Under the pieces are notes generated by a model. The model was not told where the DNA came from. It searched no databases and saw only the letters and a list, made by a program, of their open reading frames with translations. Below are positions 5,211 through 33,039 of a stretch of 64,000 bases of DNA, in pieces. This DNA is from Pseudomonadota bacterium. Lineage in GTDB: Bacteria > Pseudomonadota > Alphaproteobacteria > Puniceispirillales > Marisalimonadaceae. The position numbers and the translations under genes are program-made. The stretch spans positions 1 through 64,000 of the forward strand of contig JAQBXK010000004.1 of NCBI GenBank assembly GCA_027625145.1, given 5' to 3'. Position 1 is the stretch's first letter; every line of letters begins with the position of its first letter.

Positions 5211-6982
5211 AAACTTTTTTTATTGTAATTATTGTTTTATTTCAATTTAATACTGGAATTGTATTTGGTAAAAATAATATTTTAGAAAAGAATACTCTTC
5301 TATCCTCTGAAGATTTAAAAATTTATAAACAAATTTTTATTATTCAATCTCAGCCAATTCAAAATAGAAATAACTGTAATTGTTCGAGTGAGTGGAGAAA
5401 AGTAGATAAACTTATTAAAAAGATAGATAATAAAATTTTATTAGGAACTGTTTATGCTGAAAGATATTTGCATCCTACAGGTTGGAGAAGTTCATATAAT
5501 GAGTTAAAATTATGGTTGGATAAATATAATGACCATCCTGATGCAATTAGAATTTATAGAATAGCTTCTAAAAGAAAGCCTAAAAACTTTAAAAACCCTG
5601 CTGAACCAACAAAAGGGTTTTTAAATGGTTATGGTTTATATAAGGAGAATGTATTAAAACCAAGATTTCCTCTTAAAGAAGTAAATAATAAATTTTCTAG
5701 ATCTTCATATTTAATATCTATTAAATTTAGAAGAGCTATAAATAAAAGAAAAGCAACATTTGCCGAAAATTTATTAAACGATAAAAAAAATAAAAAATAC
5801 TTAACAAAAGATGAACAGTCACAATTAAGAGCTGAGTTATCACATGCTTATTTTATATTTAAGTATGATAATAATGCTATTAGACAAGCAAGGTTATCTT
5901 TAAGTTTATCAGATAAGCCTAACCCACTGGCATTATGGGCTGGAGGCTTGGCTTCATGGAGGCAAAAAGATTTAGTATTATCAAAGTATTTTTTTAATAA
6001 GTTAGCTGAAAAAACAAATGGACCTGACGGTATAATTGCGGCAGGCGGCTTTTGGTCATCTAGGATTGCTTATGCTATGGGAGATCCTAAAAAAGCTAAT
6101 TATTTTTTAGCAAAATCTGCATCACATGAAAGAACATTTTATGGTTCATTAGCAATGGAATCATTAGGTTATAAATACAATCCAGATTTTACTTTACCTG
6201 AATTTGACATTGATTTAATAAAAAAAATAAAACGTTTTAAAGGTGGATTAAGAGCTTTAGCCTTAATAGAGGTGTCTCAACATCATAAATCAGCTAGAGA
6301 ATTTAGAAAAATAATACCAAAATTTGAAATAGATGATTACCCAAAATTATTATCATTAGCATCTGAAAATAATATGCCAGGATTAACCTTTCGTCTTGCT
6401 GCGATCTTAAGGAATAACCATGGAAAAATATTTTTAGGTGGGCTATATCCAATTCCTTCATGGAATACAGATATATCAAGTTTAAAAGAAAGAGCTTTAA
6501 TTTATTCAATTGTCAGACAAGAGTCTGGGTTTAACCCAGTTGCAAAAAGTTCTTCTAAAGCGTTAGGTGTAATGCAAGTAATACCATCCACTGCAGCGTT
6601 TATTATGAAAGATAGACGATACAGGTTAAGAGGCAGTAAAAATTATTTATTGTATAATCCTTCACATAGCATTCAGGTAGGTTCTAAATATATAAAGTTT
6701 CTCTTAAACCTTCCTTTAGTAAACCAAGACATAATGTGGATGTTAGTAAGTTATAATGCAGGTCCAGGAAATTTTGAAAAATGGACAAAAAACAGTGATT
6801 ATAAATTAACTGATCCTTTGTTAATGCTTGAAAGTTTACCAGCTAGAGAAACTAGAAATTATATTAAATTAGTTTTAACAAATTTATGGATATACCAGTT
6901 AAGGTTTAATCAAAAATCTGATACTTTAAATTTTTTAGCAGCTGGAAAACCAATAGATTTTAAAGTTTTTTTTAAAAATTAA
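5207..6982 (+). CDS. Soluble lytic murein transglycosylase (Slt family)
   Basis: Periplasmic peptidoglycan-cleaving enzyme. The start is GTG 5207 within the GTGA overlap with the upstream gene. The N-terminus has a hydrophobic signal peptide (FFIVIIVLFQFNTGIVF). Residues ~60-400 form the helical superhelical ring typical of Slt70-like proteins. The C-terminal SLT domain shows IVRQESGFNPVAKSSSKALG with catalytic Glu near residue 439, GVMQVIPSTA, and VSYNAGPGNF. Length (591) is typical for alphaproteobacterial members. It belongs to a tight run UDG-like, slt, moaB, rnhB. Confidence 0.9.
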   Translation: MKTFFIVIIVLFQFNTGIVFGKNNILEKNTLLSSEDLKIYKQIFIIQSQPIQNRNNCNCSSEWRKVDKLIKKIDNKILLGTVYAERYLHPTGWRSSYNELKLWLDKYNDHPDAIRIYRIASKRKPKNFKNPAEPTKGFLNGYGLYKENVLKPRFPLKEVNNKFSRSSYLISIKFRRAINKRKATFAENLLNDKKNKKYLTKDEQSQLRAELSHAYFIFKYDNNAIRQARLSLSLSDKPNPLALWAGGLASWRQKDLVLSKYFFNKLAEKTNGPDGIIAAGGFWSSRIAYAMGDPKKANYFLAKSASHERTFYGSLAMESLGYKYNPDFTLPEFDIDLIKKIKRFKGGLRALALIEVSQHHKSAREFRKIIPKFEIDDYPKLLSLASENNMPGLTFRLAAILRNNHGKIFLGGLYPIPSWNTDISSLKERALIYSIVRQESGFNPVAKSSSKALGVMQVIPSTAAFIMKDRRYRLRGSKNYLLYNPSHSIQVGSKYIKFLLNLPLVNQDIMWMLVSYNAGPGNFEKWTKNSDYKLTDPLLMLESLPARETRNYIKLVLTNLWIYQLRFNQKSDTLNFLAAGKPIDFKVFFKN

Positions 6983-6995
6983 GTAAGAGAAATTG

Positions 6996-7544
6996 ATGAC
7001 TATAGATAACAAAATAAAATTTTTACCAATAAATATATCTATTTTAACAATCTCAGACACTAGAACAATTGATAATGATAAATCGGGTGATCTCTTAGAA
7101 GAAAGAGTTAAGACTAGTGGCCATAATTTAGTATACAGAGAAATAATCAAAGATGATTTCAATGACATTATAAGAGTAGTCAAAAGTTTAACAGATAAAA
7201 GTAACGTTGATGTAATTATTACAACGGGAGGAACAGGGCTTACCGGAAGAGATATAACACCAGAAGCAATGAAAACGTTATTTGAAAAATCTATAGATGG
7301 TTTTGGAGAAATGTTTCGTTGGCTATCATTTAAAAAAATAGGCACCTCAGCTTTGCAGTCAAGAGCATTAGCTGGTGTATCTAATGGGACTTATATATTT
7401 TGTCTTCCAGGCTCTCCATCAGCTTGTAAGGATGGCTGGGATGATATTCTTTTATATCAGCTTGATATTAGGCATAAGCCATGTAATTTCGTTGAAATAA
7501 TGCCAAGACTTAACGAACATCTAAATTCACGTACAAAAAATTAA
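6996..7544 (+). CDS. moaB: Molybdenum cofactor biosynthesis protein B (MoaB/MogA family)
   Basis: MoCF_biosynth domain protein that in this family adenylylates molybdopterin before molybdate insertion. Motifs are ILTISDTRT near the N-terminus, TTGGTGLTGRDITPEA with the nucleotide loop, and LPGSPSACKDGWD. The ATG at 6996 is taken as start, preceded by AAGAGAAA; an in-frame TTG at 6993 is an alternative. The stop overlaps the rnhB start as TAATG, so the two are probably translated together. Assignment as MoaB rather than MogA rests on length (~182) and the C-terminal sequence type. Confidence 0.88.
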   Translation: MTIDNKIKFLPINISILTISDTRTIDNDKSGDLLEERVKTSGHNLVYREIIKDDFNDIIRVVKSLTDKSNVDVIITTGGTGLTGRDITPEAMKTLFEKSIDGFGEMFRWLSFKKIGTSALQSRALAGVSNGTYIFCLPGSPSACKDGWDDILLYQLDIRHKPCNFVEIMPRLNEHLNSRTKN

Positions 7545-8230
7545 TGCCTGACTTTAGTCTTGAAAAAGAAAGTCATTATAAAAATATTTTTATGGTTGGC
7601 ATTGATGAAGCCGGCAGAGGTTCTTGGGCAGGGCCTATAGTTGCAACGGCATGTTGGATTGATTATAAAAATTATGCATCATTACCTTTAGAAATTAATG
7701 ATAGTAAAAAGCTAAGTTCTCAAAAAAGAAAAAAAATAATTTTATCTTTAAATAACAATGTAAAATATAGTTCTGGAATTTCTACGGCTAAAGAAATTGA
7801 TAATTATGGTCTTACCATAGCTAATTTTATGGCAATGAAAAGATCATTATATTCTTTAACGCATTTCTTTAATAAAAAATTTATTAAAAAAACTTATAAA
7901 ATTAATGTTTATGTTGATGGAAAATATACACCAAATTTTTCAAATATAGATATAACCTCAAACGAGAGTAAAATTATAAAACTACCCTTTCATAATACAT
8001 ACTCCATCGTAAAGGGTGACAGTAAATCTAAAACAATTGCTCTAGCAAGCATAATTGCTAAAGAAACCAGAGACTCTATTATGAGAAATTACTCTTTAAA
8101 ATATCCTGAATATAATTTTAACAATCACTTTGGTTATGGAACTGCAAAACATAATGCAGCACTTTTAGAATTTGGTGTGTTACCAATTCATAGGAAATCT
8201 TTTAAACCTATGAAGACCATATATAGTTAA
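7544..8230 (+). CDS. rnhB: Ribonuclease HII
   Basis: Cleaves the RNA strand of RNA-DNA hybrids and nicks at misincorporated ribonucleotides. Visible active-site elements are GIDEAGRGSWAG (Asp21, Glu22), VYVDGKY with the third acidic residue, and GDSKSKTIALASIIAKETRD. The start overlaps the moaB stop by one base (TAATG). Length of 228 residues fits the family. In alphaproteobacteria rnhB often precedes ccrM, as it does here, with a 126-base gap in between that must hold the ccrM promoter. Confidence 0.94.
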   Translation: MPDFSLEKESHYKNIFMVGIDEAGRGSWAGPIVATACWIDYKNYASLPLEINDSKKLSSQKRKKIILSLNNNVKYSSGISTAKEIDNYGLTIANFMAMKRSLYSLTHFFNKKFIKKTYKINVYVDGKYTPNFSNIDITSNESKIIKLPFHNTYSIVKGDSKSKTIALASIIAKETRDSIMRNYSLKYPEYNFNNHFGYGTAKHNAALLEFGVLPIHRKSFKPMKTIYS

Positions 8231-8353
8231 TTAAAATATAAATTATCCATATATTGTATTAAATTAAATTAATATACTAAACCATTGACTTAATTACATT
8301 TTTATAATGTTATCCACATAAAATTAACATGATATCAATAGTAAATAGAATAA

Positions 8354-11591
<3,238 letters not shown>

Positions 11592-11642
11592 TCAATTCCC
11601 CAATATTTTTTATTAAAACTAATTTATGATAAATATCACTTT

Positions 11643-13046
11643 TTAAGGTAATTCCCAAGTTAATCCTGCATTTTTAAGGCGTTTTTGTACCTCGATTAGC
11701 AACATTTTTTTATTTTCTTCAGATGTGCCTTCAACTCGAATAACTAAAACAGCTTCAGTATTGCTCGCTCTTATTAACCACCAACCACATTTATTATTAA
11801 CCCTAACCCCATCCAATTCTATTACATCATTAGATGAGTAATCAACTAAAGTTTGTTTTAAAATTTTTTCAACTATATTAAATTTAATATTATCAGAACA
11901 GGTTACTTTTATTTCTGGTGATGGGAAAGTTGTAGGTAAAGCTGAAATAAAATCTTCTAGGTTATGATCTTTAGTTACTAATTCCAATAGTTTAATAGAT
12001 GCATAGAGAGCATCATCATATCCGTAGTAGTCTTCAGCAAAGAAAATATGACCTGACATTTCGCCTGCAAGGGGGCTATTAATTTCTTTCATTCGTTTTT
12101 TAATGTGTGAGTGCCCAGTTTTCCAAATCTCAACTTTAAATCCATTTTCTATAATTTTATTATATGCAACTTGGCTAGATTTAATATCTAGAATGATTGT
12201 TTTGTCTTTATTTTTAACTATAGCATTAGAAAGAAAAGCAGTTAGTAGATCTCCAGGAACAGGTCTACCTTGTTTATCTATTATCCCTAATCTATCACCA
12301 TCACCATCAAAGCCAATTCCAAGATCTGCATTTACTTCAAGCATTTTAGATGAAAGAAGTTTTAGCGTTGAGGGATCAGTAGGATCAGGGTGATGATTTG
12401 GAAAATTTCCATCTACCTCAGAGAACAAAACTATATGATTTCCTAATAATTGTTTTGTAATTGCATTTATTGAAGGCCCTACTGCACCATTCCCACAATC
12501 CCAAACAATTGTTTTATTAGATAACAAATTATTATGATTTTTAAGAGGGGCTATAATTTTTTTAATATACTCTTCGTCTATGGTCACTTTTTTTGAAGAC
12601 CCACTATAGACCGTGTCATTTCCTTCTTGAGCAAATTTTCCAAGTTTTAAAATATCATCACCAAAAAAAGATTTTTGATTAGCTACAATTTTAAAACCAT
12701 TATGATCTTTAGGGTTATGACTGCCAGTAACTTGAATTGCACCGTCAGCATTAAAATATTGGCTAGAAAAATAGAGCATAGGAGTTGGCCCCATCCCTAT
12801 TCTAAACACTTTACAACCAGACTTTTTTAGTCCTTCATTAAGGTTCTGTTCAAGTATAGGACTTGAGATTCTTCCATCCATTCCAATTACAATAAGTGGA
12901 TTGAGTTTTAGAGGGTTATTTTGTTTAATAGTAAGACCAAAAAAATACCCAAGCATCCAGGCGTCATTAGAGTTTAATGTTTTTTCAAAAATTCCTCTAA
13001 TATCATATGATCTTAAAATATTAGGGTCAAAGGTATGTTTATACAT
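11643..13046 (-). CDS. Phosphomannomutase / phosphoglucomutase
   Basis: Alpha-D-phosphohexomutase interconverting hexose 6- and 1-phosphates. The phosphoserine loop is VTGSHNPKDHNGFK with Ser109, the metal loop is GFDGDGDRLG, the sugar-specificity loop is AGEMSGHIFF, and the C-terminal phosphate site is VRVEGTSEEN. The GEMSGH loop is that of the dual-specificity AlgC-like group. The start overlaps the galU stop by one base, so it supplies glucose-1-phosphate or mannose-1-phosphate beside GalU, which consumes glucose-1-phosphate. Confidence 0.92.
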   Translation of the reverse strand: MYKHTFDPNILRSYDIRGIFEKTLNSNDAWMLGYFFGLTIKQNNPLKLNPLIVIGMDGRISSPILEQNLNEGLKKSGCKVFRIGMGPTPMLYFSSQYFNADGAIQVTGSHNPKDHNGFKIVANQKSFFGDDILKLGKFAQEGNDTVYSGSSKKVTIDEEYIKKIIAPLKNHNNLLSNKTIVWDCGNGAVGPSINAITKQLLGNHIVLFSEVDGNFPNHHPDPTDPSTLKLLSSKMLEVNADLGIGFDGDGDRLGIIDKQGRPVPGDLLTAFLSNAIVKNKDKTIILDIKSSQVAYNKIIENGFKVEIWKTGHSHIKKRMKEINSPLAGEMSGHIFFAEDYYGYDDALYASIKLLELVTKDHNLEDFISALPTTFPSPEIKVTCSDNIKFNIVEKILKQTLVDYSSNDVIELDGVRVNNKCGWWLIRASNTEAVLVIRVEGTSEENKKMLLIEVQKRLKNAGLTWELP

Positions 13047-22705: not shown

Positions 22706-22780
22706 TGGAGCGGGCGAAGAGATTCGAACTCTCGACATTCTCGTTGGCAACGAGATGCTCTACCACTGAGCTACGCCCGC
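22706..22780 (-). tRNA. tRNA-Gly (anticodon GCC), left copy
   Basis: The minus strand gives a 75-nt tRNA with encoded CCA: acceptor GCGGGCG/CGCCCGC, D arm GCTCAGTGGTAGAGC, anticodon loop TTGCCAA, T loop TTCGAAT. It is identical to the copy at 32965-33039. This copy's 5' flank belongs to the island, so any promoter for it must come from the element. Confidence 0.95.
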
Positions 22781-22847: not shown

Positions 22848-22883
22848 TTTTTGTCTACCTTTTTGCCTACCCTTTTGTCTACC
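22848..22883. promoter_or_regulatory. Three tandem 12-bp repeats, candidate integrase arm sites (left)
   Basis: TTTTTGTCTACC, TTTTTGCCTACC and CTTTTGTCTACC follow one another at exact 12-base intervals, 65 bases inside the left att repeat. The same unit occurs twice in tandem at the right end by the int start. Occurrence at both ends of the element suggests binding sites for the recombinase N-terminal domain. Confidence 0.6.
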
Positions 22884-22921
22884 CCAAATCAAATGAATGT
22901 TCTGATGTGTGAGTCAATCAT

Positions 22922-23593: not shown

Positions 23594-24871
23594 CTATAAT
23601 GGATCATTGTTTGAACTCTTCTGCTCGGATTCATCCGCTAGCGGCGACACGGTATCAACGCGCGGATCTAGTGCATGAATCATGCTGCTGGAAATCGGCA
23701 CATTGACAAAACTATTCTCTGATGCATGCCGTTTGGTATTTAGCATACGGCCAACTATAAACAACCCTGCAATAAATTGGAAAAAGGCAGAAAAATAAAA
23801 TAGGGCCTCTGGGCCATAGTTGTCCATGAGTACCCCTCCAGCAACAGGGCCGATCACTGATGCCGTTGACCAGATAACTAGCATGGTGGCACACACGTTG
23901 ACCATATTCTCACCCTCGAAATGATCAACGGCATGAGACAGGGCAATAGAATAGATAGAGAGTCCTGTTCCACCCCATATAAAGACTAGAAGTAAAATCA
24001 GGTTTTCGGCACCACTTGGAGACAAGGTTATTGACACAGAAACTGCTGCAGCAACTATTAATGCTGTCGCCATGACAACACGTCTGCCAATGGCATCGGA
24101 AATTAGACCAAGCGGCCACTGTAAGGTCAAGCCACCAAAGTGAGCTATGGCTATAAGCGCAAACGCATTGGCCATTGTCAAGTCGATACTGAGACCATAG
24201 ATTGGCAGAAAATTAAGGACCGCCCCATTGGCTAATCCGATAGCAAAGGCGGCTCCAACCGAGCTTGGTACAGCCAAAAAAAGAGGTTTAAATGAAAGTG
24301 ACCCCCCAGTAATAATTTCTGGTATTGGGGGCATTTTCGTCATTGCAACTGGCACAAGCGACAAGGCAAACAGAGAAGCTGCCAATAACAAGCCTTGCTC
24401 GCTGATAAAAACTGATGCGGCAAGCATCGCCGGGGCACTTACGTGGGCCAGCTTAGTGACAGTTGCATATAGCCCCATAACCTGACCGCGCATGGCCGTT
24501 GGTGTTCCGCGCACTACCCAGCTATCGGCGCAGGTTGAAATGATTGCAATGGCACCGCCCATTACACCACGAATGATTATTCCACTCTCAGTGCTGGAAC
24601 TTAGGTGCATGGTGATAGCAAGAGTTGATAGTATTGCTGCGGCAACAGCAAATGCACGAATATGACCAACCTGATTGATCAGTTTAGGGCCCCAGAAACA
24701 GCCAAATACAAATCCGATCCCGTAAGCGGTTGGAATTAGCCCCACATAGCCAAGATTTTCAAAAGCTGCATTTGCTCTGAGGACTAATAGTGGAGCCACC
24801 ATATTGTTACCAATTTGCAGAATGACTGTGCTACAGACAATAGCCGCAATGGATAAGATTATTGAAAACAT
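23594..24871 (-). CDS. MFS transporter (YcaD-like), GC-rich cargo
   Basis: A 425-residue protein with about 12 hydrophobic helices. YGIGFVFGCFWGPKLINQVGHIRAF holds the loop 2-3 region of the major facilitator superfamily, and SDAIGRRVVMATAL the equivalent loop of the second half; RGVMGGAIAIISTCADSWVVRGTP suggests the YcaD/UMF-type subgroup. Substrate unknown. Base composition is clearly higher in G+C than the backbone and codon use differs, so it is transferred DNA. The start overlaps the preceding 63-codon chimeric frame as TGATG. Confidence 0.82.
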   Translation of the reverse strand: MFSIILSIAAIVCSTVILQIGNNMVAPLLVLRANAAFENLGYVGLIPTAYGIGFVFGCFWGPKLINQVGHIRAFAVAAAILSTLAITMHLSSSTESGIIIRGVMGGAIAIISTCADSWVVRGTPTAMRGQVMGLYATVTKLAHVSAPAMLAASVFISEQGLLLAASLFALSLVPVAMTKMPPIPEIITGGSLSFKPLFLAVPSSVGAAFAIGLANGAVLNFLPIYGLSIDLTMANAFALIAIAHFGGLTLQWPLGLISDAIGRRVVMATALIVAAAVSVSITLSPSGAENLILLLVFIWGGTGLSIYSIALSHAVDHFEGENMVNVCATMLVIWSTASVIGPVAGGVLMDNYGPEALFYFSAFFQFIAGLFIVGRMLNTKRHASENSFVNVPISSSMIHALDPRVDTVSPLADESEQKSSNNDPL

Positions 24872-25062
24872 CAGGTGTTAATTTCATCATGAAAAATAGA
24901 TGCATCTGGTATTTTTCGGCATTTATGGGCAACAGGATCGCTGGGAACATCAGTGTTAGGACCTAGGCCAAAAGCAACAAGAAATTGAAAAGGGAATTCT
25001 TTAGAATCATATGTTTCTTCTGCGAGTTCAGATATAGCTTGTTCTATTTCTACAGCATTCAT
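24871..25062 (-). pseudogene. Chimeric frame: N-terminus of a DNA methyltransferase fused to foreign tail
   Basis: The first ~32 residues (MNAVEIEQAISELAEETYDS then KEFPFQFLVAFG) match the start of large class I DNA methyltransferases of MmeI-like/type IIG kind, as I remember the family. After the FG the expected NKxTxxRL continuation is replaced by an unrelated 31-residue tail that runs to a stop overlapping the MFS start codon. The DNA also changes from AT-rich to GC-richer at about 24960-24970. I read it as a junction where a methyltransferase gene was cut by incoming DNA. The family match is from memory. Confidence 0.5.
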
Positions 25063-25216: not shown

Positions 25217-25299
25217 ATGTAGGGTATGTAGGGTTTACCCTTAGGTTCTAAATTTAAATCTATAGTACAACCTAAGGTATAACCCTACATAGTCTACAT
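25217..25299. promoter_or_regulatory. Long iteron-bearing hairpin, copy A (candidate replication origin)
   Basis: The left arm has two ATGTAGGG units (25217-25224, 25226-25233), then TTTACCC and TTAGGTT. The right arm mirrors this with AACCTAAGGTA and ACCCTACAT, then a degenerate second unit GTCTACAT (25292-25299). About 30 base pairs form with single-base bulges and a ~20-base loop. A related hairpin with different stem bases lies at 29752-29834. Location just past the primase stop fits an origin or other cis site of the element; the role is inferred. Confidence 0.6.
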
Positions 25300-25316: not shown

Positions 25317-25443
25317 CTAAATGTTATAACAACTACCATTATTCTTTAATTTAATGTCGACATAGATATAACCCTTACTTACTCTAGTCTTCTTTAGACC
25401 ACGCTCCACCATTCGTTTACCAAAGAGAGTTTCAGAGATAGGG
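25317..25443 (-). pseudogene. C-terminal fragment of a second D5-type primase gene
   Basis: The last ~42 codons read IPISETLFGKRMVERG.. to the stop, matching KPISEMVFSKRMQERG.. and the VDIKLKN end of the intact primase at 29861, clearly homologous but diverged. At 25444 the frame enters a copied piece of the ABC transporter gene, and the upstream residues of the open frame are out-of-frame ABC sequence. It is the tail of a former satellite primase cut at this junction. Confidence 0.78.
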
Positions 25444-25563
25444 ATGGAACGCGGTGTGAAGGGCGTGTCATTTTTATTGCGGTTTTTGCTCTTCTCGATT
25501 GGACCTTTGGTTCTGCAATTGGTGCTGATTTCTGCAGCTTTGGCCACCTTCTTTGATGTGCGC
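25444..25563 (+). repeat. Exact 120-bp copy of an internal part of the ABC transporter gene
   Basis: These 120 bases are identical to 27851-27970, same orientation, and encode the in-frame stretch beginning MERGVKGVSF and ending FFDVR of the exporter membrane domain. The left edge touches the truncated primase and the right edge lies 14 bases from the end of the SDR gene. It cannot be a functional gene piece. It records a recombination event or a chimeric join. Confidence 0.9.
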
Positions 25564-25576
25564 AATAAGCACTCGA

Positions 25577-27418: not shown

Positions 27419-29236
27419 ATGAAAAGCCTTGGCACCACCGACACTCCACATGACCGTAAGGTCGAAATCCGGGTTATTGCGCGGGTTATGCCATATCTTT
27501 GGCCTAAGGGTCAGGCCTGGGTCAAATGGCGCGTTGTGCTCGCGGTAGCCAGTTTGATTTTGGCTAAACTTGTGGCGGTTGCCACTCCGATGATCCTTGG
27601 CGCTGCGGTTGACAGCCTGTCGGGCGTGGATGACGGCAGCCGGCTTTTGATGCTGGGGGCGGTGGGTCTCACCATCGCTTATGGCCTGTCGCGGATCCTC
27701 GACAGTGGATTTCAGCAATTGCGTGACGTAGTTTTCGCGAAGGTGGGGCAAAGGGCTTTACGGCAGGTGGGTTTGAAGACCTTCCAACACATTCACAACA
27801 TGTCCCTGCGCTATCACCTGAGCCGTAAAACAGGCGGGTTGAGCCGGGTCATGGAACGCGGTGTGAAGGGCGTGTCATTTTTATTGCGGTTTTTGCTCTT
27901 CTCGATTGGACCTTTGGTTCTGCAATTGGTGCTGATTTCTGCAGCTTTGGCCACCTTCTTTGATGTGCGCTATCTGGTGGTGATTGCTGTGGCAGTGGTC
28001 GCCTATGTTTGGTTCACAGCGGTTGTCACAGAATGGCGGGTAAAAATTCGCAAACAGATGAATGACCAAGACAATGACGCCAATCAAAAAGCCATCGACT
28101 CACTGCTGAACTTTGAAACGGTGAAATATTTTGGAGCAGAGGCGCGCGAGGCAGGACGCTACGATTCCGCAATGGAGGGATATGAGGCCGCAGCGCTAAA
28201 GACTTCCTATTCCTTAGGGGTGATCAACATCGGTCAGACTTTGATCATCAACTCGGCGCTGGTGGTCGTGATGTTGATGTCCGTGCAGGGCGTGGCTGCT
28301 GGCACGGTAACCGTTGGTGGCTTTGTGACGGTGAACGCTTATATCATGCAGGTGATGATGCCTCTGAATTTCCTTGGGTTTGTCTACCGCGAAATTCGCC
28401 AAGCCTTGGTCGATATGTCTGATATGTTTGGACTTTTGGAGCAACCCCCTGAGGTGCAAGACAAGCCTGATGCACCTGCATTACAAGTGCAGGGTGGCAG
28501 CATTGAGCTAAGGGACGTACATTTTGCTTATGACCCTGAGCGCGCCATTCTCAAGGGTGTCAGCCTCAAGGTGGAACCTGGACAAACTTTAGCGATTGTA
28601 GGGCCTTCTGGCTCTGGAAAGTCAACCATAGGCCGGTTGCTTTTTCGCTTTTATGATGTGACGCAGGGGACTTTGCTAGTAGACGGGCAAGACATTCGAG
28701 ATGTCACGCAGTTGAGCCTGCACGAGGCGATTGGCGTCGTACCGCAGGACACTGTTTTGTTCAACGACACCATCTATTACAACATCGCCTATGGCCGCGC
28801 TGAAGCGACCCGCGCTCAGATTGAGCAAGCCGCCAAGGAAGCTCAAATTCATGATTTTGTGCAAAGCCTGCCACAAGGGTATGAGACCACCGTGGGCGAG
28901 CGCGGGTTGAAATTGTCGGGCGGCGAAAAGCAACGGGTGGGCATTGCGCGCAGCCTACTGAAGGATCCGCCTATCTTGCTTCTGGATGAAGCGACCTCAG
29001 CGCTAGATACGGAAACCGAACATGAAATCCAAGAAAGCCTGATCCAAATGGGGCGGGGACGCACGGTTATGATCATTGCGCACCGCCTTTCGACCGTCGT
29101 GCATGCTGATCGCATTGTGGTGTTGGAACAAGGTCGGATCGAGGAAGAAGGCAGTCACGACGAGCTGCTCGCCCAAGATGGCCGTTACGCGCATCTGTGG
29201 AATTTGCAATTGTCAGAAGATGTAAGCAAAGTGTAA
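27419..29236 (+). CDS. Atm1/HmtA-type ABC exporter (membrane-ATPase half transporter), GC-rich cargo
   Basis: A 605-residue half transporter. Residues ~30-320 hold about six membrane helices of the ABCB type. The ATPase domain has Walker A GPSGSGKST near 395-403, signature LSGGEKQRVGIARS, Walker B ILLLDEATSALD and the switch His in IIAHRLSTV. The sequence resembles mitochondrial/alphaproteobacterial Atm1, which exports glutathione-linked sulfur compounds or metal conjugates. G+C is far above the backbone (57% in the line at 27481) and its style is Rhodobacterales-like. The gene is complete. A 120-bp piece of it is duplicated at 25444. Confidence 0.92.
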   Translation: MKSLGTTDTPHDRKVEIRVIARVMPYLWPKGQAWVKWRVVLAVASLILAKLVAVATPMILGAAVDSLSGVDDGSRLLMLGAVGLTIAYGLSRILDSGFQQLRDVVFAKVGQRALRQVGLKTFQHIHNMSLRYHLSRKTGGLSRVMERGVKGVSFLLRFLLFSIGPLVLQLVLISAALATFFDVRYLVVIAVAVVAYVWFTAVVTEWRVKIRKQMNDQDNDANQKAIDSLLNFETVKYFGAEAREAGRYDSAMEGYEAAALKTSYSLGVINIGQTLIINSALVVVMLMSVQGVAAGTVTVGGFVTVNAYIMQVMMPLNFLGFVYREIRQALVDMSDMFGLLEQPPEVQDKPDAPALQVQGGSIELRDVHFAYDPERAILKGVSLKVEPGQTLAIVGPSGSGKSTIGRLLFRFYDVTQGTLLVDGQDIRDVTQLSLHEAIGVVPQDTVLFNDTIYYNIAYGRAEATRAQIEQAAKEAQIHDFVQSLPQGYETTVGERGLKLSGGEKQRVGIARSLLKDPPILLLDEATSALDTETEHEIQESLIQMGRGRTVMIIAHRLSTVVHADRIVVLEQGRIEEEGSHDELLAQDGRYAHLWNLQLSEDVSKV

Positions 29237-29284: not shown

Positions 29285-29680
29285 TTGGAGCTTTTAAAGA
29301 GCTTAGATGATCATGGTTTTTCAAAAGAGGATCTCATACAACTCAAGTCAATAATAGATGCAAATAACAGTGATCTATTTGACGTTCTTGAGTATGTAAG
29401 CTTTGCTAATTCTTCTATGACAAGAGAGGATAGGGTGTCTTTAGCTAACTCAAACATCCACAACTTCGTTAACGACAAACAAAGAGACTTTATCGATTTC
29501 ATCCTTCGTAACTACATTAAAGACGGTGAAGATGAACTTGAGTTATCTAAGTTGCCTATAGCGATTAACTTAAAGTATGGAAGCATAAGTGGAGCTGAGT
29601 TGAACTTAGGTAGCATAAAGGAAATTAAGAAGGTCTTTATAGACTTTCAAAAGTATCTCTACCTTAATCAAGTAGCTTAG
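29285..29680 (+). pseudogene. C-terminal fragment of a type I restriction subunit HsdR
   Basis: A 131-residue AT-rich frame starting with TTG right after an in-frame stop. It resembles the C-terminal helical domain of EcoEI-type HsdR: EYVSFANSSMTREDRV, then QRDFIDFILRNYIKDGEDEL, KLPIAINLKYGSISGAELNLG and FIDFQKYLY, in the order expected. The helicase and nuclease parts (most of ~800-1000 residues) are missing, replaced upstream by the GC-rich ABC segment. It is a decayed defence gene left in the element cargo position. Confidence 0.6.
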
Positions 29681-29751: not shown

Positions 29752-29834
29752 GGTGTAGAGATGTAGGGTTAAACCCTAGCTTCTTCATAAAATTCAATAG
29801 AAGAACCTATAGTATAGCCCTACACCCCTACATC
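29752..29834. promoter_or_regulatory. Long iteron-bearing hairpin, copy B (candidate replication origin)
   Basis: GGTGTAGAG and ATGTAGGG in the left arm (29752-29768) face CCCTACA and CCCCTACATC in the right arm (29818-29834). The inner stem is CTTCTTC against GAAGAA. About 29 of 35 positions pair, counting two G-T pairs, around a 13-base loop. Stem bases differ from copy A while pairing is kept, which argues for selection on the fold. It starts 35 bases after box B and ends 26 bases before the primase stop codon. Confidence 0.6.
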
Positions 29835-29860: not shown

Positions 29861-31285
29861 CTAAAAGTTATAACCACCACCGACATTCTTCAATTTTATG
29901 TCGACATAAACTTTATTGTGCTTAAGTCTTTCTTTGGTAAAGCCACGCTCCTGCATTCTTTTACTGAAGACCATCTCAGATATAGGTTTTATATAGTCGT
30001 CACCTGAGTTACTGTTGGCCCAGAGTTTATATTGCTCGTAAACCTCTCTAGCGCCTACTTTAGAGCTTGGTTTGATCTCAATATGCTCTTTGATAAACTC
30101 CCCAAAGACATCATTCTCTGACTTGTAACGTTCTGTAGCCTCATCTATAGCACTACATGGCCCAAGTCCAGTTTTACCTCCGGAACTCCTAAGTTCTCTA
30201 TACCAGTGATAAGCGCCATCGACACACCACTTAAAGATACCTTCTTTCTCTCTGAGGAGTTTATCTTTAAGAGTTAAGTCTACTTTATCATCGAACTGTT
30301 GGTTAAAAGGTACAATTCTGATACGTCTCCAAAAGCCAAATGATCCATCATTTGCATAAAGCATGTGATTTGCTGAGAACCATAGTTTAAATTCAGGTTT
30401 GAATTCAAATGCTGACTTCATCAACTTTGTTCCTCTTAGTGTATCGCCTCCAGTAAGTTTCTTAACTATGGCTTCATTGAAACTACCTCGACTTTCAGTT
30501 TCTGATGCAAGGACAAATCTAATCCCTTTAAGTTCTCCAACAGCCTCAAGTTCACGAACACCTGACTTTTGTTTGCTGATGAATGTCTCAAAGTCAGTTG
30601 TTTTACTGTATTCGGCTAATATGTCGTGTATTACTTCAAATAAAGTTGATTTACCGTTAGATCCAGTACCGTAGGCATAAAACAACTTCTGTTCTAACAC
30701 AGAACCTGTTAGAGAGTAGCCAATCGCTCTTTGAACCCATTTGATTAACTCATGGTCATTCCCAAACACCTGATTAATAAAGTTAATAAAAACTGGTGCT
30801 TTAGCACTGGAGTTATACGATACATTAGCAAGCTTACTGATAAGCCTGTGTTTATGAATACCTAATAGCGTCTTTGATTTAAGGTCCACGACCCCGTTTA
30901 AACAGTTAATCAAACTTATGTCTTTATCAAAGTCACTCATTGATACGACGATGTCTTCATGCTTAGAAGCCATATTGATCATTGATAGTATTTTATTATT
31001 ACTTTGAGATTGCTTAGACCATTTTAGTAACTCTTGCTTTTTGAATATGTCACTTGTTTCTAACGCTTCAGTTTTAATACTTTTTACCACCTCAAAAGCT
31101 TTTTGGGTGGCTTGTGTATTATTACTGCAATACTTCCACCTCATACCATCCCATACAAACCAAGATGATGGTGTGCCAGTTGATTTTAGTGTGTCTTTAT
31201 GTTGGTCTACTAATCTATTCATATTTCCCATGTCTGTGCTTTCATAGTTATTTTGATTGTCGTTTTTTGAATTAGTCGTAGTCAT
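29861..31285 (-). CDS. P4-type D5 helicase/primase-like replication protein of a satellite
   Basis: A 474-residue protein from ATG 31285, chosen because AAAGGAG lies seven bases upstream; the open frame runs to 31342 but through a terminator hairpin. The D5_N region is followed by a superfamily-3 helicase with Walker A YGTGSNGKST (206-214), a Walker B-like FVLASETE, and the FSANHML ... GFWRRIRIVPF arginine-finger segment; the C-terminus has a winged-helix-like end. This is the replication ATPase of P4-like satellites and some plasmids. The N-terminal primase polymerase domain common in P4 alpha is not apparent; the protein starts near the WFVWDGMRW element. Confidence 0.85.
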   Translation of the reverse strand: MTTTNSKNDNQNNYESTDMGNMNRLVDQHKDTLKSTGTPSSWFVWDGMRWKYCSNNTQATQKAFEVVKSIKTEALETSDIFKKQELLKWSKQSQSNNKILSMINMASKHEDIVVSMSDFDKDISLINCLNGVVDLKSKTLLGIHKHRLISKLANVSYNSSAKAPVFINFINQVFGNDHELIKWVQRAIGYSLTGSVLEQKLFYAYGTGSNGKSTLFEVIHDILAEYSKTTDFETFISKQKSGVRELEAVGELKGIRFVLASETESRGSFNEAIVKKLTGGDTLRGTKLMKSAFEFKPEFKLWFSANHMLYANDGSFGFWRRIRIVPFNQQFDDKVDLTLKDKLLREKEGIFKWCVDGAYHWYRELRSSGGKTGLGPCSAIDEATERYKSENDVFGEFIKEHIEIKPSSKVGAREVYEQYKLWANSNSGDDYIKPISEMVFSKRMQERGFTKERLKHNKVYVDIKLKNVGGGYNF

Positions 31286-31314: not shown

Positions 31315-31348
31315 AATAAAAAAACACCACTTGATAATTCAAGCAGTG
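31315..31348 (-). terminator. Terminator-like hairpin in the leader of the primase gene
   Basis: CACTGCTTGA (31348-31339) pairs with TCAAGTGGTG (31334-31325) over a 4-base loop, followed in the minus direction by TTTTTTTAT. It is a well-formed rho-independent terminator 30 bases before the primase ATG. A second small hairpin (GTCCTT/AAGGAC, 31299-31313) sits next to the Shine-Dalgarno site. It stops int readthrough, attenuates primase transcription, or both. Confidence 0.6.
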
Positions 31349-31400
31349 CTTAGGGTTGATTGTTATTTGATTGTGAAAAACTACTAGTTAGAAATAGTTG

Positions 31401-31571
31401 TTTCTCAATGGGTGGACACAGAGATTTATTTGTTCTTGCCAACCTAATGAAGAACAGCATTTCAGACGTTTTGGTTTAGTAGTTTCTCAATGGGTGGACA
31501 TAAGTAACTAATTAGATGTAATTACCTCCATTTTGAGATGATGTTTTTATTAATCTCTCAATGGGTGGACA
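31401..31571. repeat. Three 16-18 bp direct repeats between int and primase genes
   Basis: TCTCAATGGGTGGACA is exact at 31403-31418, 31485-31500 and 31556-31571, extended to TTTCTCAATGGGTGGACA in the first two. Start-to-start spacings are 82 and 71 bases. They lie in the only sizeable non-coding gap of the element core (31349-31736), which holds no convincing gene. They are probably binding sites for the replication protein or a regulator. Confidence 0.65.
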
Positions 31572-31736
31572 CTATTCCCCATTTCTATCCTCAAACCCAT
31601 GCTGTGGTTAGAAAAAAGATCAGATTCCTACAATTCTTGATTCACTGGTGATATGTACTAAGAAAAGGTGATTTATTTAGATCATTGGGAGAGAATTTCT
31701 ATCAGACTATTGTCACACTTAATGTCCATAATAGAG

Positions 31737-32888
31737 TTAGTATTTAATAATTTTACTCAATACTTTAATTGTCTTTGCTAAAGAATAGCCATTTCCATAT
31801 GACGATCCTACTTTATTATCCGACCATCCACCAATCTGATCTATCATTTCAGTAGGACAATTTACCTCTCGAAGACGATCTCTCATACTATGCCTAAAGC
31901 TATGAATAACACAACGCTCAGGTACTCTTGATTTAAGCCATTTGTTTAAAGCAGCACTCGCTGAATTAGAACTACAATAATCTTTGTTTGTATAATGAGG
32001 GAATGCAAACGCATCATTTCTATTTGCAGAAATCTGTTGGGCTGCCCAAAGGGATAAGCCTACAAGAGGTATCTTTCTTTCGCTAGATTTAGTTTTTAAT
32101 TGTCTAGAAGAGTTGGGAACAATATTAACGTAAGGGACATCTTCATAAAGTTTAAGATCATCGACTTTTAATCCAAGAGCTTCAGATAACCTCATGCCAG
32201 TATCAGATATAAGCGCTATTAACCATCTATTTGGGTCATTAATAACAACGCATTCTTCCTGAACTTTTCTGATGATATTAATTGGTATGGGCTGTCTTTT
32301 AAAAGTATCTTCAAGATCAGGGATATATGTTTTGGCAAAGGCATTTTTACAACTCAGCCCATGCTCTTGAATGGATAAATTTATAATTGCTCGAATGATT
32401 GCAAACACCCTTTTAACCGTTGAAGAGACAAGTCCCCTATCTATCATGTGATCCCTAAAACGTGCCGCATCAGTAGTTGAATAAGCGTTTAAAGAACGGT
32501 CTTTTAAAAGGGCTATAACGTCGTTTACAGCTCTTCTGGAGGCTCTAAAAAAGACCTCACCCTTCCCTATTCCCTTCAGTTTAAAGTATGTTTGAAGAGC
32601 ATTTGAGAGTTTCGGATTTTGATCCATTTTAGGAGAATCTTGCAGGATTGTTTGCATAGGTAATGTTGTTAAATTTCCATTGTTTATTCTTAAAGTAAAC
32701 CAGTATTGATTTAATTTAAGCAATATATTTTGGCTGAGATGAGTTGCTTCTTTGATTGATTTTGTTTTCAAGCTAACGACAATTCTGACCTTTGCGTAAT
32801 GGTATCGTAAATCTCGGGGAACCTGCTTAGAAAAATAAAACACCTCTCTTTTTTGATAGAGATATTTGCGGTTAAGTTTGTCTACCAT
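31737..32888 (-). CDS. int: Tyrosine recombinase (island integrase)
   Basis: A 383-residue phage-type integrase. The catalytic set is visible: Arg233 in DTGMRLSEALGL, Lys near KTKSSERKIPL, HSFRHSMRDRL with His329 and Arg332, and Tyr364 in GSSYGNGY. The N-terminal ~35 residues (YLYQKREVFYFSKQVPRDLR) form the DUF6538-like arm-binding head. The start codon lies inside a 12-bp repeat that recurs at both element ends, suggesting autorepression. Position beside the tRNA-Gly 3' end is standard for elements that integrate there, and the open frame looks intact. Confidence 0.92.
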   Translation of the reverse strand: MVDKLNRKYLYQKREVFYFSKQVPRDLRYHYAKVRIVVSLKTKSIKEATHLSQNILLKLNQYWFTLRINNGNLTTLPMQTILQDSPKMDQNPKLSNALQTYFKLKGIGKGEVFFRASRRAVNDVIALLKDRSLNAYSTTDAARFRDHMIDRGLVSSTVKRVFAIIRAIINLSIQEHGLSCKNAFAKTYIPDLEDTFKRQPIPINIIRKVQEECVVINDPNRWLIALISDTGMRLSEALGLKVDDLKLYEDVPYVNIVPNSSRQLKTKSSERKIPLVGLSLWAAQQISANRNDAFAFPHYTNKDYCSSNSASAALNKWLKSRVPERCVIHSFRHSMRDRLREVNCPTEMIDQIGGWSDNKVGSSYGNGYSLAKTIKVLSKIIKY

Positions 32889-32898
32889 TTTGTCTACC
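32875..32898. promoter_or_regulatory. Two tandem 12-bp repeats, candidate integrase arm sites (right)
   Basis: AGTTTGTCTACC (32875-32886) and ATTTTGTCTACC (32887-32898) are in tandem at 12-base pitch, the same unit as the three left-end copies. They straddle the int start codon at 32886-32888, so bound recombinase would also block its own gene. Confidence 0.6.
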
Positions 32899-32964
32899 CA
32901 TCAAAAGTTAATACTTTTAAAAGGTTGAAAATCTAAGGGAAAGCTTGGAGTTCTGTACCAATAA

Positions 32965-33039
32965 TGGAGCGGGCGAAGAGATTCGAACTCTCGACATTCT
33001 CGTTGGCAACGAGATGCTCTACCACTGAGCTACGCCCGC
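32965..33039 (-). tRNA. tRNA-Gly (anticodon GCC), right copy
   Basis: Identical in sequence to 22706-22780, with encoded CCA. Its 5' flank is backbone DNA, so this is the copy that keeps the native promoter, while its 3' flank is element DNA with int. The tRNA identity was restored on integration. Confidence 0.95.

Follow-up and report, generated by a model that had tools for sequence, protein, structure and literature searches.

The gap between an integrase gene and a primase-helicase gene in the DNA analysed here (contig JAQBXK010000004.1 of a Pseudomonadota genome, positions 1 to 64,000; hereafter the window, 64,000 nucleotides in all) contains three exact copies of a 16-base word, and the question that the locus raises is what these copies do. 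On the plus strand TCTCAATGGGTGGACA starts at 31403, 31485 and 31556, and the spacings of 82 and 71 bp reported in the first-pass annotation proved correct; the interval that it gave, 31401-31571, does hold the copies but starts 2 bp before the first of them. Read in the sense of the primase gene the word becomes TGTCCACCCATTGAGA, of which RTGTCCACC(C) is the conserved part. Among 2000 dinucleotide-shuffled versions of the 451-bp gap, none had a 16-letter word three times, the longest triple word having 13 letters, and over the whole window 0.33 matches to the 16-mer with up to 3 mismatches are expected by chance, with no shuffle reaching 3. Two of the window copies share a 24-bp match with 1 mismatch, and the 2.27 Mb genome has one other place within 2 mismatches of the 16-mer, a 2-mismatch match on another contig.

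The spacing had been called too wide for tandem iterons and the copies too few for a CRISPR, and both judgements stand. An iteron origin has tandem copies about one helical turn apart beside an AT-rich region, whereas the 16-mers lie 71 and 82 bp apart; a CRISPR array has regular repeats, unique spacers of similar length and cas genes, whereas the window has three repeats of 16 bp with spacers of 55 and 66 bp, and its relatives have 1-2 copies. We rejected both candidates. The proposal that the spacings fall near multiples of the helical repeat did not survive calculation, 71 and 82 bp being 6.76 and 7.81 turns at 10.5 bp per turn and 6.45 and 7.45 turns at 11 bp, so that a fit needs an assumed 10.2 bp. 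A purine precedes every core copy, and the resulting RTG-TCC-ACC can be read as a mini-ORF with an in-frame stop after 3-8 codons; no Shine-Dalgarno sequence was seen at most of the core copies, and we judged these ORFs a coincidence.

With TTG 31342 as the primase start the gap measures 394 bp, and with ATG 31285 about 451 bp. The ATG appears the more likely start, because the alignment with the related locus L006 (genome G008; 91% primase identity across the gene) begins there. The earlier description of a 390-base gap without genes agrees with our reading, in which the ORFs present are of 20-39 aa and none is a convincing gene. The gap does contain an intrinsic terminator (1 found versus 0.1 expected; Table 1), and L006, L114 and L110 have counterparts between their upstream sites and the primase. 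In L006 the terminator is present, no gene points into the gap and the adjoining tRNA points the other way; we therefore infer a transcript that would start inside the gap, which would place the repeats in the promoter or leader of the primase gene. The relevant strand showed no good sigma-70 promoter.

Table 1. Features of the gap, the primase gene and the island border in the window.
Feature	Position	Strand	Remarks
Candidate replication origin	29754..29832		2 TGTAGG-type iterons, AT-rich centre, 2 inverted iterons; directly 3' of primase stop
P4-family primase C-terminal/D5-type helicase gene	29861..31285	-	Without N-terminal primase domain
Intrinsic terminator	31322..31351	-	13-bp stem, T-rich tail; between repeats and primase ATG
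Repeat W3	31403..31418	-	Primase-proximal copy; ortholog L006:1391, TGTCCACCCTTTGATA
Repeat W2	31485..31500	-	Middle copy; no counterpart in L006
Repeat W1	31556..31571	-	Ortholog L006:1320, 16/16 identical
Decayed remnant of GTGTGACA-type tandem site (AAGTGTGACAATAGTCTGATAGAA)	31695..31722	-	Matches site beside tRNA in related islands
Tyrosine integrase of tRNA-Gly island (DUF6538 + Phage_integrase)	31737..32888	-	Homologs beside tRNA-Gly in L208-L211 and L214
tRNA-Gly(GCC)	32965..33039	-	One island border; other copy 22706-22780 (83 bp, 98% identical)

The primase gene matches TIGR01613 (primase_Cterm) with 245.8 bits (4.4e-73; cut-off 108.7) as well as D5_N and DUF5906, and phage profiles match it in the C-terminal part only. 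The full-length structural model was set aside for its low confidence (pLDDT 55), and the C-terminal domain alone was usable. This domain is predicted with good confidence to be a winged helix, a plausible iteron-binding domain; its likeness is to the RFX DNA-binding domain and to the terminal part of the ASFV primase-helicase (Foldseek E 1.2e-3 at best).

The first-pass annotation had made its reading depend on conservation of the 16-mer in related elements, and the core RTGTCCACC is indeed kept there, next to primases down to 41-48% identical to that of the window. In other SAR116 islands, at tRNA-Val and tRNA-Arg genes, homologous primases are preceded by the core in the same orientation (L006, L112, L111 and L114), and as far as the contigs reach it lies between the tRNA or att end and the primase. 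The L006 gap has two copies, TGTCCACCCATTGAGA and TGTCCACCCTTTGATA, 71 bp apart, and three tRNA-Arg islands have one each: TTTGTGTCCACCCTTAGCGA in L114 (primase 41% identical), and TTTTGTGTCCACCTAG in both L112 (48%) and L111 (47%), the contig of the last starting inside the gap, so that its tRNA is out of view. Sense orientation holds for 9/9 copies seen. An exact match of 15 bases, TTTGTGTCCACCCTT, links L006 and L114, where shuffles reached 12 at most; L006 shares 12 exact bases with L112 and likewise with L111, for which the shuffle maxima are 12 and 13.

At 18 integrase-homolog loci with no primase in the fetched flank the core is missing, except for one stray 8-mer, and the motif therefore travels with the primase and not with the integrase. 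The core is also absent from L024, L115 and L110, the last of which falls inside the carrier group of the primase tree, and so the element is not universal. L110 has different spaced direct repeats, TATGCAGAAGTTA and variants, at 240-510 in the gap upstream of its primase, in the place of the 16-mers. A host regulon was considered and rejected: of the four occurrences of the 13-mer TTTGTGTCCACCC in 137 related genomes, two lie in primase gaps and the other two within unrelated genes, which leaves no such regulon visible. Matches to the degenerate 16-mer in IMG/VR (80 contigs, one match each, no primase relative) were treated as chance. Given how few of the islands that show this conservation are independent (window/L006/L208 as one group, L112/L111, and L114), our claim of function is moderate, not strong.

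If the 16-mers do not form the origin, a better candidate lies at the other end of the gene. Directly 3' of the primase is an array of TGTAGG-type iterons, a pattern found at 21 loci versus 0.15 expected from shuffles, several of these loci being overlapping copies of the same places. It is carried by the window, by a relic copy at 25218-25298, by L006, L110, L112, L111, L024 and several viral relatives, and in looser form by L114 and L115, and its conservation extends to viral contigs and to relatives whose primases are about 37% identical. Every homolog that bears the motif has the array 3' of the gene, as do the three islands without the 16-mer core. PICI origins follow the initiator gene directly on its 3' side, and in them two sets of iterons enclose an AT-rich region (PMC6092414). 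As judged from this arrangement, the island origin is probably the TGTAGG array rather than the 16-mers.

At 25317-25566 lies a relic of a second primase gene, namely its final ~41 codons (59% identical), which has an iteron array of its own on the 3' side; position 25444 marks its junction with a 123-bp fragment that matches the ABC transporter gene (27851-27973) at 99% identity. Truncated restriction genes adjoin the two primase 3' ends, one at 24871-25062 resembling the N-terminus of MmeI (a weak match, below the curated cut-off) and one at 29285-29680 resembling the C-terminus of EcoEI HsdR; they suggest that defence cargo was lost from both islands.

The two tRNA-Gly copies delimit an island of ~10 kb, and L208, from a genome of the same genus (G001), has an integrase homolog with 98% identity at tRNA-Gly. 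Beside the tRNA or the contig start, L006, L111, L112 and L114 have tandem GTGTGACA repeats 12-13 bp apart, which are probable integrase arm sites. A joint search for GTGTGACAA and TGTCCACC at 8-40 bp gave no match, because the real spacing exceeds 100 bp. Direct repeats of TTTGTCTACC occur near both tRNA-Gly copies (22850-22884 and 32877-32899), one of them over the integrase start codon, and are possible arm sites of the tRNA-Gly integrase. In L112 a tRNA-Arg(CCG) island at 5617-12690 carries a primase and Entner-Doudoroff-type genes and has no integrase of its own; it ends in a 45-bp copy of the tRNA 3' end, right after which the integrase of a neighbouring element starts.

Relatives keep the core of the site before the same gene, and it is therefore probably a control switch for the primase gene. 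On the sequence comparisons, we see about an even chance that the 16-mers are conserved cis control sites in the 5' region of the primase, in a P4/PICI-like replication module of SAR116 tRNA-integrated islands. The 16-mer sites would set primase expression, and the level of expression would determine whether the island replicates, the origin being the 3' iteron array. Of the first-pass annotation's suggestions for sites upstream of a replication gene, a functional role thus gains from the conserved core, but primase binding to them as origin iterons is weakened, because an array of other sequence lies directly 3' of the gene.

We infer that the 16-mers would be bound by a protein that regulates the primase gene. 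The most economical binder would be the island's own primase, acting through its predicted winged-helix domain either to regulate its own gene or as an auxiliary binder; no other gene is shared by all motif-bearing islands read, and no regulator gene common to these islands was found. The 3' iterons differ in sequence from the 16-mer motif, however, so that one DNA-binding domain would need two specificities, and a factor from the host or from a helper phage is almost as probable. Against regulatory sites in general stand the three islands without the core, the tRNA-Arg islands with a single site and the result of the sigma-70 promoter search.

The main rival is control by a leader RNA, in which the gap would be an untranslated leader up to the terminator and the repeated motif would act as RNA, with P4-type control by premature termination as a precedent. 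The L006 terminator without an upstream gene and the common orientation of all copies are consistent with it, as are the fold of W3 with the terminator (z = -4.46) and hairpins (z -1.95 to -2.98) after W1, W3 and both L006 copies. However, W2 and the copies in L112, L111 and L114 showed no significant structure, so that a hairpin after the motif, present at only 4/9 copies, was rejected as a general feature; nor does the window contain any complement of the 16-mer within 3 mismatches, and no Rfam match rose above threshold. We consider this rival unlikely. Somewhat less likely again is a form of control not described before, shared by the replicative islands of SAR116, in which repeated RTGTCCACC sites in the leader would be recognised by the island's own D5-type helicase or by an RNA partner and would gate read-through of the terminator into the primase, switching the island from integrated to replicating, with sites gained and lost by recombination. 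We give rather little credence to the proposal that the 16-mers are P4-like origin or crr iterons to which the primase-helicase binds to start replication. The primase is of the P4 family, with a predicted C-terminal winged helix, and the P4 type I repeats TGTTCACC (record NC_001609) are 7/8 identical to the core TGTCCACC. P4 iterons, however, come as close pairs 9-11 bp apart in both orientations, whereas the cores here are single sites 71-82 bp apart in one orientation, and the separate TGTAGG array, present also where the core is absent, lies where PICIs have their origins (PMC6092414).

Could the repeats instead be by-products without function? Copy number among the islands ranges from 1 to 3. 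In L208 a single core connects the left flank of W1 with the right flank of W2 (left, 94% identity; right, score 51.5 against W2 and 20 against W1), and therefore one 71-bp repeat-to-repeat unit was lost or gained; in that core copy the right half has drifted and only TGTCCACCCAT remains. Such shifts by whole units, and such drift, are what functionless repeats made by recombination, and kept alike by gene conversion or recent duplication, might show. The window spacers, however, have no mutual similarity although the 16-mer is exact, and therefore the sites are not leftovers of whole-unit duplication; moreover, the core is kept between islands with primases 41-50% identical and with gaps that show no other likeness. 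We find this account improbable, and more improbable still that the 16-mers serve the integration machinery as arm-type or excisionase sites. The gap does adjoin the attachment end in related islands, the motif being ~105-180 bp from the tandem GTGTGACA repeats beside the tRNA (L006, L112, L111 and L114), but those tandem sites are the better arm candidates, primase-less integrase islands have no motif, and the window keeps three exact copies of the 16-mer although its GTGTGACA sites are decayed, with another integrase in between.

Control of the primase gene through these sites would bear on how the replication gene is governed in replicon-type islands that have no recognised repressor. In SAR116, a marine group of high abundance, the islands integrated at tRNA genes carry genes for metabolism and defence. 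With a conserved site and a separate 3' origin candidate, the control can be tested in small constructs.

Among known systems, satellite phage P4 resembles the island in the helicase-primase C-terminal domain of the alpha type (TIGR01613), in the likeness between core and type I repeat given above, and in the place of its iterons: the P4 crr, with paired inverted type I repeats, adjoins alpha (NC_001609), as the window iterons adjoin the primase on its 3' side, and the array lies between gene and att end. It differs in that the window primase has no N-terminal primase part and that the closely paired 3' iterons are TGTAGG here, the upstream sites being single and too widely spaced for TGTTCACC-type close pairs. 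Neither the P4 genes sid, delta, psu and cI nor a vis/alpA regulator was found among the island ORFs of 60 aa or more with Pfam and PHROGs. Small marine islands with a tyrosine recombinase and a primase are known as PICMIs (PMC10803314), and tycheposons, as described second-hand in PMC10872708, are tRNA-bordered cargo islands of marine plankton; the portions of these two sources used here describe no TGTCCACC-like repeats, and, as a point of difference, the window island has no recognised AlpA/Fis-type regulator. PICIs arrange their integration and replication modules otherwise, and none of their rpr/stl, alpA, terS or packaging genes was recognised in the window island, but the order of initiator and then 3' origin, with two iteron sets around an AT-rich region, is that of PICIs and SaPIs (PMC6092414).
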